From contig JAJYSJ010000001.1 in the NCBI GenBank assembly GCA_021793645.1, positions 186,001 through 250,000 of the forward strand: a stretch of 64,000 nt of DNA. Direction: 5' to 3'. This stretch comes from Bacillota bacterium (GTDB lineage Bacteria; Bacillota; Sulfobacillia; JAJZYS01; JAJYTV01). The position numbers and the translations under genes were made by a program. The notes beneath the pieces were generated by a model. The model was not told the DNA's origin. It was given only the letters and a program-made list of their open reading frames with translations, and did not search any database. Numbering within the stretch: position 1 is the stretch's first letter; each line of letters opens with the position of its first letter. This document shows, piece by piece, positions 25,700 through 51,206 of this stretch.

Positions 25700-25969
25700 C
25701 AATGCGGGGTCTCCTGGTGTTCGAGGAGCGAAGCGTACAGTTCGCAGACCTGCCCGCACTGTGGCCACCTTAGCAGGGTGGCGGGAAGAACCTACCGCTG
25801 TCGGTCGTGCGGATACAAAGCACACCGCGATGCGGTAGGGTCCGTGAACATCCTCAGTAAGGGCGTCCACGGCGGTGAGATCCGGCCAGGCGTCTTCCTG
25901 GTGCCGAAACGGATCAAGTATCGCCGTCCGGTTCCCCTCAAGGGAACCTCAAGGCGTAGTTGCGGCTGA
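25700..25969 (+). pseudogene. tnpB: TnpB (IS200/IS605-family) 3' remnant with zinc finger
   Basis: Only the C-terminal ~80-90 codons of an OrfB/TnpB remain. The zinc ribbon is intact: YSSQTCPHCGH and YRCRSCGYKAHRDAVGSVNI, followed by the basic tail KRIKYRRPVPLKG. Just upstream GLLVFEERS, a typical preceding strand, is in a different frame, pointing to a frameshift as well as loss of the RuvC part. TnpB is an RNA-guided nuclease encoded by IS200/IS605 transposons; this copy cannot be active. Confidence 0.82.
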
Positions 25970-26116: not shown

Positions 26117-27352
26117 CTAGTCGGCCGCGCCTTGTACCGCGGCTACCTGCATTCCCCAATGCCGTGCGCCGCGGAGCGCGAGCATCGCAGCGATCAGCAG
26201 ACAGCCGCCCGTCAGCCAGAAGACGGTATGGATGCCAAAGGCTCCGGCAGCGAGTCCGCCTACCAAGGGACCGAGCATCGTGCCCATCTGCCCGGCGCTC
26301 TGGTTGAGACCGAAGGCGCGGCCGCGGAAATCCTGCGGCGTCGTCTGGACGACGAGACCGTTGAGCGCCGGGAAGACTGCGCAGAAGAACGCGCCATAGG
26401 CGAAGCGCACGACGGCGAACGGCACGAGCGTGTGGAAAGGGATCTGCAGCAGATTGCCGAGCCCACCGCCCAAAAGGCCGATGGTGAGGATCGGCAGGAA
26501 GCCGCGCCGGTCCGCAAGGCGCCCCCACCGCGGCGCGAAGAAGACGCTCGCGATGCCGACGAGCGAGAAGACGATGCCGGCGATGAGGGACGCGTCCTGC
26601 AAGGAGCCACCGAGCTGCACGATGTAGAGCGGCAGGATCGGTTCGATGGTCATGATGGAGAAGTTGACGATCAGCGTCAGGGCGATCACGCCGAGGAACG
26701 GGCGGTTGCCGAATGCCACTCGCAGGTCGTTGCCGACCCCCGTGCGTTCGCGCGCAGGCGCAAAATTGTCCTCGCGGACGAACAGCAGTGCGAGCACCGC
26801 TGCGAGCAGCACAAGAACAGACGCGCTGGCAAAGGCTATCCGTGTGCCGAACAGGTGAGAAAGCCCCCCGCCGAGCAGCGGGCCCACGATCGACCCGGTT
26901 GCAGAGCCGGTCGCCATGATGGAGAGGGCCCAGCCGACGCGCTTTTGAGGAGCGCTCGTCCCAACAAGCGTGATGGCGTTGGGGACATAACCTGACAAGA
27001 GGCCCTGGGCCGTGCGCAGGATGAGCAGCTGCATCGGGGTCTGCACGATTGCCGTCAGCGCGTAGGCCACAAAGAGGGCGAAGCCCGAGCGGAGGATCAT
27101 CGGGCGACGTCCGTAGCGGTCTGCCAAGGAGCCCCAGTACGGCGAGATCAGTGCGCTGGCGAGGAAGGTACAGCTGAAGAGCACCCCGGACCAGATGTCG
27201 ATGTCCCGATGCACGCCAATCTTCAGGAGGAAGAGCGGCAGGAAGGGAACCACCATGGAGTAGCTGGCCGAGGTGACGAATACGCCGACCCAAAGGACGA
27301 GAAGATTGCGCTGCCAGGTTTCGAGTTCCATGCCTTGAAAGCGACCGATCAT
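26117..27352 (-). CDS. MFS multidrug efflux transporter (DHA1, MdtG/NorA-like)
   Basis: 411 residues, 12 predicted helices. WGSLADRYGRRPMILRSG (motif A), a helix-5 region with GSIVGPLLGGGLSH (motif C of antiporters) and RGRAFGLNQSAGQMGTMLGP in the second half place it with drug:H+ antiporters. The ATG at 27352 is used; the ribosome binding site is weak and the ATG at residue 8 is an alternative. It lies 20 nt from the TnpB relic right end and is divergent from the PDO-like selenoprotein candidate. Confidence 0.85.
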   Translation of the reverse strand: MIGRFQGMELETWQRNLLVLWVGVFVTSASYSMVVPFLPLFLLKIGVHRDIDIWSGVLFSCTFLASALISPYWGSLADRYGRRPMILRSGFALFVAYALTAIVQTPMQLLILRTAQGLLSGYVPNAITLVGTSAPQKRVGWALSIMATGSATGSIVGPLLGGGLSHLFGTRIAFASASVLVLLAAVLALLFVREDNFAPARERTGVGNDLRVAFGNRPFLGVIALTLIVNFSIMTIEPILPLYIVQLGGSLQDASLIAGIVFSLVGIASVFFAPRWGRLADRRGFLPILTIGLLGGGLGNLLQIPFHTLVPFAVVRFAYGAFFCAVFPALNGLVVQTTPQDFRGRAFGLNQSAGQMGTMLGPLVGGLAAGAFGIHTVFWLTGGCLLIAAMLALRGARHWGMQVAAVQGAAD

Positions 27353-27468
27353 GGCGGCATTCTACGCCTGTCCGCAGCCAGTGACAATGATGGCGCGTCT
27401 TGCGGTCCGAAGGCAGGACCGTGAGGCCAGGCAGTGGAATGCGGTCTGCAAAGGAAGGGATCGCTCCG

Positions 27469-28101
27469 TTGCTCAATGCCCGAAGGGATATATTGCAAGC
27501 TGCGCTTGACGAGCTTTCTGAACCGGTGGCCATCTGGGTCCTCGGTGCACCGCAGGCAGCGGCGCAAGAGGATCTTTCGACGCTGCTCTCCTTGCAGCCG
27601 TTGCTTTCGCTGCGCCATCGCGAACCCGCAGTGGCTGATTCGCTTCTGCCCCAGGTCCACTACCCTGTCTACGGCATGTCGCTCCCTACCGACGACGTCC
27701 CGCGCGGGAACCGCTTCATCGGATTTCCAACGGGGTTCTCGCTGGACGCGTTCGTCGACGAGCTCCTTGCGCTCTCGCGCGGCATCCCCCAGTCTTCTCC
27801 TCTGGCACGAGAGACCCTCTCGCGACTCAGGGAGCCCGTCACCGTGCGCGTCTTCACCTCCCCCGGCTGAACGCGCTGCGCGCAGGCGGTCCGCCTGCTG
27901 CACGGCTGGGCGCTCGATCAGCCCCTTCTGACCGCCGACGCGGTCGAGCTGTCGACCTATCCCGAACTTGCCGAACGCCTGCACGTGAAGGCAGTGCCCC
28001 ACTTCGTCCTCCGTAAAAGCCGGGGAGAAGAGGTCTTCGCGGGTGCGGTGCCGGAGCCGGCGCTGCTCGCACGGCTCGCCGTGGCGGGTGCGGCCCTGTG
28101 A
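27469..28101 (+). CDS. PDO/glutaredoxin-like protein, candidate selenoprotein (UGA = Sec at residue 134)
   Basis: Read through the in-frame TGA at 27868-27870, the frame makes a 210-residue protein with the two-module layout of protein disulfide oxidoreductases. Its second module has VTVRVFTSPG-U-TRCAQAVR where known PDOs have a CxxC (for example TPTCPYC), then VELSTYPELAERLHV and the cis-Pro loop KAVPHFVL, then FAGAVPEPALLARL. The first module keeps the fold (EPVAIWVLGAP) but has no CxxC. FIGFPTGFSLDAFVDELLALS matches the PDO linker. The TTG at 27469 follows AAGGAAGG at 10 nt; an ATG at 27439 is possible. A SECIS-like hairpin follows the UGA. It would act as a cytoplasmic thiol/selenol oxidoreductase. 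The alternative is a pseudogene by TGC-to-TGA change. Confidence 0.83.
27871..27898 (+). promoter_or_regulatory. Candidate bacterial SECIS element (PDO-like gene)
   Basis: GCAGGCG (27882-27888) pairs perfectly with CGCCTGC (27892-27898) around the loop GTC. The loop begins 19 nt after the UGA and starts with GU, the same distance and bases as in the GrdB-like gene, although the stem sequences differ. Confidence 0.65.
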
Positions 28102-28342: not shown

Positions 28343-29032
28343 CTAGAGGGTCTCCGCGCGCATGCGGCGCTCTTGGACCTCGCCCTGGGAGATCTCCAGT
28401 CGGTAGGCTGTCGGTCCTTCGCTCGAGCGCACGACGCGGTGGAGCTGACGTTCGACGTAGTGCAGTGCGACGCCGTCGTCTAGTGCAACGCCGGGTCCAA
28501 GGGCTCCCTGGAAGAGCAGGCGATGGAAGGTGGGCCGACGCTCCGGCTCGCTGTCGTAGTGCGGCGAGAAGCTGCCCTGGAGGAACCCGAGGCACCGCAG
28601 GGCACTTAGAGTCCCTGGCACCGAGTCCGTCACGCCTGCCTCATACCAGCACAGCGCGCCCGCGCTGATTCCGGCGAGCACGATGCCCCGTTCCCATGCG
28701 GTGCGCAGGACCTCGTCGAGCCCCCATGCGCGCCAGATCGCGAGCATGTTCTTCGTGTTGCCGCCGCCGACGTAGATAACATCCTGGCTCAAGAGGAACG
28801 CTGGGATATCGCGCGGCGGGCTTTGGAACAGCGGCTGGTGCGATGGAGCGCAGGGAAGCGTGTTGAACGCGGCGTAAAATCGTTCGATGTAGTCTGCGGA
28901 GTCGCCACTGGCTGTCGGCAAGAAGCAGACCCTTGGCTTGTCCTTACCGGTCTGCGCTAGTACGTAGTGGTCCAGTGCCAGGTTCTCCGGCTCCGTTGAG
29001 AACCCGCCGCCGAGTGCGATGATCTGCCGCAT
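28343..29032 (-). CDS. Peptidase E-like protein (family S51)
   Basis: 229 residues, the usual size of the peptidase E / YgaJ group, serine hydrolases acting on small peptides. YVGGGNTKNMLA and the nucleophile elbow AGISAGALCWYEAG (Ser nucleophile) are clear, and SFSPHYDSEPERRP fits the family His region. The ATG at 29032 is preceded by AAGGCGGG; longer readings extend over the divergent DUF4269 promoter. No signal peptide. It is convergent to the PDO-like gene with a 240-nt gap in which I see nothing else. Confidence 0.88.
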   Translation of the reverse strand: MRQIIALGGGFSTEPENLALDHYVLAQTGKDKPRVCFLPTASGDSADYIERFYAAFNTLPCAPSHQPLFQSPPRDIPAFLLSQDVIYVGGGNTKNMLAIWRAWGLDEVLRTAWERGIVLAGISAGALCWYEAGVTDSVPGTLSALRCLGFLQGSFSPHYDSEPERRPTFHRLLFQGALGPGVALDDGVALHYVERQLHRVVRSSEGPTAYRLEISQGEVQERRMRAETL

Positions 29033-29116
29033 CGGATCCCGCCTTTCCACATTCTTCATAGATGAGAATACGACAGCCGCGCGCCCGCTCCCTGGCGGCG
29101 CAGCAAGGAGGACTGC

Positions 29117-29674
29117 ATGGATCGTTTCCTGCCGTTTCGAACCGCGCCTGCAGAGCGACTTGGCGCCGCAGTGCAACAGCTGCGCAACGCGGGCGTTCTG
29201 CGCGTCCTCTCGCCATTCGAGCCAGTGCTGGCAGGCACCCTGCCGCTCGGCGTCGACGTTCCGGGGAGCGACGCGGACATTCTTTGCGTGCTACGGCCGG
29301 AACACCTGTTCCTCTCTGCCGTCCACTCCTTCTCCCGCTTCCCGCACTTCTCCCTGCGCCGCTCCGTGCGCTGCGGTCGGCCAACGGCGGTCTGCCGCTT
29401 TCGCGCAGGGGATCTCTCGATCGAAGTCTTTGCCCAAGCCGGGCCGCTTGCGTCCCAGCGCGGGTATCGTCACCTCGAGGTGGAGCATCGTCTCCTGTCG
29501 ATGGGCGGCGAAGGCCTGCGAGAGCGGGTCATGGAATTGCGGCGCAGCGGAATGAAGACGGAGCCGGCGTTCGCACACCTTCTGGGTCTCCCGGGCGACC
29601 CCTACGAGGCGATGCATGAGATCTCCCGGTCGCCGGACGCGGCACTCCAGAGACTGCTGCGCACTCCCAACTAA
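29117..29674 (+). CDS. DUF4269 family protein, nucleotidyltransferase-like
   Basis: 185 residues. AGTLPLGVDVPGSDADILC looks like a nucleotidyltransferase G-S-x-D-x-D site; RHLEVEHRLLSMGGEGLR and KTEPAFAHLLGLPGDPYEA match the DUF4269 pattern as I remember it. The activity is not established. The ATG at 29117 has AAGGAGG at 5-6 nt. It is divergent from the S51 peptidase gene and its stop overlaps the convergent S41-like gene by 4 nt. Confidence 0.83.
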   Translation: MDRFLPFRTAPAERLGAAVQQLRNAGVLRVLSPFEPVLAGTLPLGVDVPGSDADILCVLRPEHLFLSAVHSFSRFPHFSLRRSVRCGRPTAVCRFRAGDLSIEVFAQAGPLASQRGYRHLEVEHRLLSMGGEGLRERVMELRRSGMKTEPAFAHLLGLPGDPYEAMHEISRSPDAALQRLLRTPN

Positions 29675-45314: not shown

Positions 45315-45338
45315 GACCCCTGGCTATCGCCAGGGGTC
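45315..45338 (-). promoter_or_regulatory. Hairpin sequestering the ribosome binding site of the 36-codon ORF
   Basis: On the minus strand GACCCCTGG (45338-45330) pairs with CCAGGGGTC (45323-45315) around CGATAG, followed by TTT and the ATG. The AGGGG Shine-Dalgarno is in the 3' arm. It could instead be a terminator with a short U-tract. Confidence 0.4.
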
Positions 45339-45503
45339 ATCGGCGCCGCGGACGGCGCGGTTCGGACATCGTCCGAGGCGGAACTCCATCGCCGAGGATC
45401 AGCGTACCAGAATCAGGGACTAATTAAGCCGTTTTGGGTCAGTCGGAGTGCGACCCAATCTGAGACCTTTACGGTAGTGGCCAGGTCGGAGTGCAGGCTC
45501 GCC

Positions 45504-50993: not shown

Positions 50994-51060
50994 TGCGCCA
51001 ATACAATCTTGAGGGGGGAGCGCCGGAGCCGGCTGGACGATCCAAAACTGCATATGTTCC

Positions 51061-51206
51061 CGTTATCGCGAGAGGTGGAGGGACTGGCCCAATGAAACCC
51101 GGCAACCCGGCGCTTGTGCGCCAAAGGTGCCAATTCCTGCAGTCCGCAAGGGCTGAGAGATAAGAGGGTCTGCGAATTGAATGCGCCCTCGGGGCGCGTT
51201 TTTTCG
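51061..51206 (+). promoter_or_regulatory. SAM-I (S-box) riboswitch with terminator
   Basis: Conserved core: GAGAGGTGGAGGGACTGGCC, CAATGAAACCCGGCAACC, AGGTGCCAATTCCTGC and CAAGGGCTGAGAGATAAG. P1 is TTATC (51063-51067) with GATAA (51159-51163). The expression platform is the hairpin GCGCCC/GGGCGC (51183-51197) and GTTTTTTCG. SAM binding should favour the terminator and shut off metY-metX. Confidence 0.97.

Follow-up and report, generated by a model that had tools for sequence, protein, structure and literature searches.

A UGA-containing gene in a Bacillota genome very likely encodes a selenocysteine protein in a diverged sister subfamily of the Sec-PDO family

In 2006, selenocysteine (Sec)-containing proteins of the TIGR02187 family were predicted for Carboxydothermus hydrogenoformans and Symbiobacterium thermophilum, under the description 'homolog of AhpF N-terminal domain' and with the motif UxxC (PMC1794560). 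Reviews also give them as UxxC (PMC9312934, PMC13188914), and they are reported from Asgard archaea too (PMC13188914). The NCBIfam model TIGR02187.2 bears the name PDO_seleno_TRX. Given the 2006 prediction, the reviews and the name of this model, the Sec-PDO is a kind of protein already known. For the locus described here, a sequence-only reading had proposed a protein of the PDO type in which UGA encodes Sec within a UxxC motif, an interpretation that has stood; it had also taken the form for an undescribed family, a claim to novelty that the earlier prediction and the named NCBIfam model overturn.

The gene lies in the window, by which we mean the whole 64,000-nucleotide stretch of DNA analyzed. 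Positions 27469-28098 of the forward strand form a single reading frame, and the sole interruption read from the sequence is a TGA at codon 134. The features of the locus are as follows.

27453..27460, + strand: putative Shine-Dalgarno-like GGAAGGGA, read from the sequence, 8 nt upstream of TTG 27469
27469..28101, + strand: predicted selenoprotein gene, PDO/AhpF-NTD-like UxxC oxidoreductase of 210 aa with U134; stop codon TGA 28099-28101
27469..27780, + strand: N-terminal thioredoxin-fold module (about aa 1-104) without CxxC and without Cys; AlphaFold model pLDDT 84-98
27838..28098, + strand: C-terminal thioredoxin-fold module (about aa 124-210); Pfam Thioredoxin_3 and model
27868..27870, + strand: in-frame TGA, predicted Sec134, first position of U-T-R-C; TGA 75, TGC 14, TGT 2 in 91 homologues
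27877..27879, + strand: TGC, Cys137, resolving cysteine and sole Cys of the protein; invariant in 91/91 homologues
27882..27898, + strand: predicted bacterial SECIS hairpin GCAGGCG-GUC-CGCCUGC with apical G27889-U27890; from fold, pair counts and controls
27997..27999, + strand: proline P177 of the cis-Pro loop (KAVPHF); invariant column in the homologue alignment

Around the predicted Sec, the protein reads ...VRVFTSPG-U-T-RCAQAVRLLH...KAVPHF..., the frame resuming after the TGA as TRCAQAVRLLH. TTG 27469 is a plausible start codon, since GGAAGGGA lies 8 nt upstream and a GTG is found at a nearly equal point in orthologues L025 and L026; the residues EGI, encoded just before the start, are kept ahead of the GTG in both. 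No Cys precedes residue 137, so the N-terminal CxxC of the archaeal two-site PDO is absent from the window protein, as it is from most of the 91 homologues.

The fold was examined by profile and structure comparison. Pfam Thioredoxin_3 matched aa 125-201 with 30.5 bits (cut-off, 24.8), and an AlphaFold model built from an alignment of 23 sequences (mean pLDDT 93.8, pTM 0.90) consisted of two tandem thioredoxin folds. In Foldseek, the best solved structures were the PDOs of Aquifex and Pyrococcus (2ywm, 1j08, and 1a8l; TM 0.75-0.79), together with the AhpF N-terminal domain 1zyn (TM 0.78/0.83). The fused TrxR-like flavin domain that is a trait of AhpF is absent, the window gene stopping at aa 210. 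What the sequence-only reading had said of the layout was borne out: a frame open on either side of the TGA over 27469-28101, PDO-type architecture, the TGA at the attacking position of the C-terminal UxxC (U134-T-R-C137), the cis-Pro loop beyond it, and an N-terminal module lacking a CxxC of its own.

We then turned to the codon at the catalytic position. Relatives of the window protein are contained in 92/154 genomes of the class, and most have exactly one internal TGA. Over 91 extracted homologues, the catalytic codon was TGA in 75, TGC in 14 and TGT in 2, with no other codon; because similarity to the window protein was the basis for collecting the homologues, these counts are not a census, but the search does not force TGA or TGY at this column. 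None of the 91 has a further in-frame TGA, and all retain the resolving Cys. Because the column holds TGA, TGC or TGT in 91/91 and no other in-frame TGA occurs, the in-frame TGA is not a matter of chance. The window's own taxonomic family contributed six orthologues (L025-L030; 50-69% identical to the window protein), all of which have TGA at the identical codon and retain the downstream frame. Past the UGA, the NG86 dN/dS ratio was below 1 in 8/8 pairs and about 0.1-0.3 in 7/8 (L001/L025, dN 0.19 and dS 0.78; L028/L030, dN 0.13 and dS 1.37); the closest pair, L027/L029, has few changes (dN 0.06, dS 0.13). Codon-position differences and the NG86 estimates together indicate purifying selection on the post-UGA part among the orthologues.

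These results bear on three other readings of the TGA. If it were a true stop, only the 133-residue N-terminal module would be made and the rest would be a decaying remnant, as might be expected from table 11, in which TGA is a stop, and from the open reading frame that ends at 27868-27870. However, 7 genomes share this TGA and have conserved what follows it: dN/dS there is below 1, and neither the catalytic Cys nor the cis-Pro has been lost. In addition, 16 homologues have a Cys codon at the column. A true stop is accordingly highly improbable. Some bacteria use codes in which UGA is Trp, and the UGA could be decoded as such another amino acid, either through such a code or by near-cognate read-through. 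Against this, the alternatives at the column are exclusively Cys codons and never Trp, the genome has tRNA-Sec(UCA), SelA and SelB in addition to the SECIS downstream, and UGA does not act as a sense codon everywhere, since the gene itself terminates at a second, true TGA (28099-28101); we give decoding as Trp or the like hardly any weight. Finally, the genome is a 94-contig draft, in which a Cys codon corrupted during sequencing or assembly might be suspected, but the identical TGA is found in 6 separately assembled relatives, in 75 homologues overall and in a paralogue in the same genome, leaving an error with a practically negligible chance. The stop, Trp and error readings of TGA 27868-27870 were set aside on the strength of the codon column and the conservation. 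It is very likely that UGA 27868-27870 is read as Sec.

A search for the Sec genes and an inspection of homologues had been proposed along with the sequence-only reading, and both spoke for a Sec protein. All four genes, selA, selB, selC and selD, are present in the window's genome (3.4 Mb in 94 contigs; 96% complete): the protein profiles scored 535, 306 and 351 bits for selA, selB and selD, each above its curated cut-off, and a tRNA-Sec with anticodon TCA (UCA) was found. Among the homologues, the orthologues retain the UGA and conserved sequence past it, and the column has TGA or a Cys codon only. Across genomes, selA was present in 71/76 of the UGA type and in 6/12 of those with Cys forms only (Fisher p = 0.0006, kinship ignored). 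Five UGA-type genomes show no complete selA, at least two of which (G047 and G123) are clearly incomplete assemblies. The SelD of the window's genome, whose gene adjoins selA, is a selenoprotein too, with an in-frame UGA (SGUGCK).

The SECIS was analyzed by comparison, since the folding energy of the region in single sequences was not exceptional (synonymous-shuffle p 0.04-0.77 in the window clade) and was uninformative; the case rests on covariation. Numbering the U of UGA as 1, the hairpin spans 15-31, with pairs 15-31 to 20-26 around an apical loop that contains G22-U23. Across 70 distinct Sec sequences, 95% of stem cells were paired, versus 60% in the Cys homologues; with the 3' side slid, pairing was 20-47%, and none of 1000 column shuffles exceeded 89%. 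At pair 19-27, 64/75 Sec sequences have G-C and 8/75 have A-U, the A-U version occurring in a genus sister to the window's own and in one distant family; these two positions pair in only 6/16 Cys homologues. Pair 18-28 varies among G-C, T-A and C-G. The apical GU is retained in 72/75 Sec sequences. In E. coli fdhF, an apical GU lies at about an equal distance from the UGA. An Rfam search gave no SECIS match under strict or permissive settings. Together, the comparison argues for a SECIS hairpin with apical GU downstream of the UGA, with covariation that is missing in the Cys homologues.

Two groups of relatives depart from the usual stem. L047, L095 and L098 (genomes G031, G030 and G032 of one genus) are close PDO relatives whose catalytic codon is either TGC or TGA. 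Their Sec forms are missing the usual apical GU stem and have GGCC-AGGUU-GGCC a few bases downstream, which may be a SECIS that has shifted; this stretch is also retained in the Cys form, as after a recent switch. In the very divergent pair L082 and L094 (branch 3.3; motif U-T-R-C), the stem is mostly rebuilt with other bases (CCAUGU-CGUGA-ACAUGG).

We are highly confident that the locus encodes a cytosolic 210-residue selenoprotein of two thioredoxin folds, with Sec134 inserted via the SECIS and thiol-disulfide exchange carried out by the second module, in a sister subfamily of Sec-PDO. According to our model, a ribosome reaching UGA 27868 would meet the hairpin starting 12 nt downstream, which would recruit SelB and Sec-tRNA-Sec so that Sec134 is inserted, as the conserved machinery, the hairpin and the conservation suggest. 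The first module, with its fold retained and no redox centre, would serve as a scaffold. In the second, the Sec134 selenolate would attack a disulfide (or be oxidized) and Cys137 would resolve through a selenenylsulfide, a cycle that we infer because of the motif, the invariant Cys and the cis-Pro. The reductant is probably a thioredoxin-reductase-type flavoprotein. No reductase gene was seen beside the PDO gene; a TrxR gene (372 bits) lies on another contig of the genome, and pairing the two would be a guess.

The genes flanking the PDO gene in the window are as follows.

26117..27352, - strand: divergent MFS (MdtG-like DHA1) transporter, adjoining the PDO gene in 6/6 orthologue contexts
28343..29176, - strand: cyanophycinase/PepE-like (peptidase S51-type) protein; weak NCBIfam matches, synteny in orthologue contexts

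The order MFS - PDO - cyanophycinase-like is maintained in the orthologue contexts, with an extra MFS homologue in between in L054 and L055, and threonine genes are syntenic as well. Such a neighbourhood marks the gene as old and stable and does not show partnership. There is also a reading in which a Sec protein of the same fold, instead of acting in disulfide exchange at large, is dedicated to one partner, for instance as a peroxiredoxin reductant (AhpF-NTD-like) or as a factor of the adjacent MFS efflux pump. Two points favour it: one of the closest structures is the AhpF N-terminal domain, in which the second fold alone is redox-active, and the PDO gene has the divergent MFS gene beside it in all six contexts. 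On the other side, no flavin domain is fused, no peroxiredoxin gene was seen adjoining, and synteny alone is no proof, since it extends to the threonine genes and the cyanophycinase-like gene as well. We regard a dedicated partner as possible but somewhat unlikely. Elsewhere in the window, a short ORF at 25778-25969, apparently a remnant, has a zinc-finger C-terminus that we take to be typical of IS200/IS605 OrfB (TnpB)-type proteins; in L055, the flanking genes there are about 40 bp apart. A SAM riboswitch (51060-51166, + strand; 82.8 bits) and a fluoride riboswitch (45324-45402, - strand; 35.9 bits) scored above their gathering scores.

The window protein scored 94.3 bits against TIGR02187, below the curated cut-off of 185 bits, in a match starting at aa 75; the orthologues and relatives tested scored 70-87 bits, with matches beginning at about residue 65-80. 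Since the tested members of the window subfamily reach 70-94 bits where the cut-off is 185, model-based annotation would probably cut them short or overlook them. In a quick tree, made with no bootstrap and with long branches flagged, the window clade comprised 7 proteins (SH-aLRT 99) and stood, with 10 more relatives, apart from 74 canonical sequences (98). The class search (154 genomes) found close orthologues in the window's own family only. When 398 genomes sampled evenly across the phylum were searched, matches above 60% identity came only from the window's own genome and one genome of the same genus. To the extent of these searches, the clade appears restricted to a single bacterial family. 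A scan of genome contigs with the window protein alone gave no relative; the same scan with a paralogue from its own genome, L002, gave 12, the closest genomes being Bacillota metagenome bins, which implies no cultured host. Against plasmids, the search yielded a single weak match. A further proposal, which we consider doubtful, is that the 17/91 proteins made up of the window clade and its relatives, in Sec and Cys forms, would be a functionally distinct second Sec-PDO subfamily with a first module that is purely a binding domain, in one family maybe serving a dedicated redox partner, possibly the adjacent MFS transporter.

Selenoproteins that fall under family cut-offs are likely to be cut at the UGA or overlooked, and the window subfamily, with the numerous Sec-PDO copies in the class, suggests that selenium-based disulfide chemistry is commoner here than gene tables show. 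The Sec/Cys alternation, with SECIS pairing retained in Sec and largely lost in Cys forms, offers a natural experiment on Sec retention.

Compared with known systems, the window protein represents a diverged sister subfamily to the Sec-PDO family already known, and what is new is modest. Like TIGR02187 PDO_seleno_TRX, it has two thioredoxin folds, a UxxC at the site of the second CxxC, a cis-Pro and alternation of Sec with Cys among homologues; however, the window clade reaches 81-94 bits with only the C-terminal two thirds aligned, has the motif U-[TGS]-[RT]-C where that family has mostly UPYC, and forms a separate tree branch. L002 (U-P-Y-C) is likewise a Sec-PDO with UGA at the equal column and no N-terminal CxxC, but it is of the canonical subfamily (196.5 bits, above the TIGR02187 cut-off) and about 33% identical to the window protein over 124 aa. 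Archaeal and Aquifex PDOs (1a8l, 1j08, 2ywm, and 2ayt) share the overall fold and match in sequence over aa 75-204, whereas the window protein lacks the N-terminal CxxC and has Sec at the C-terminal site. The AhpF N-terminal domain (1zyn and 1hyu) has its redox pair in the second fold only and shares the two folds; unlike AhpF, the window protein is without a flavin-reductase domain, and Sec replaces Cys.
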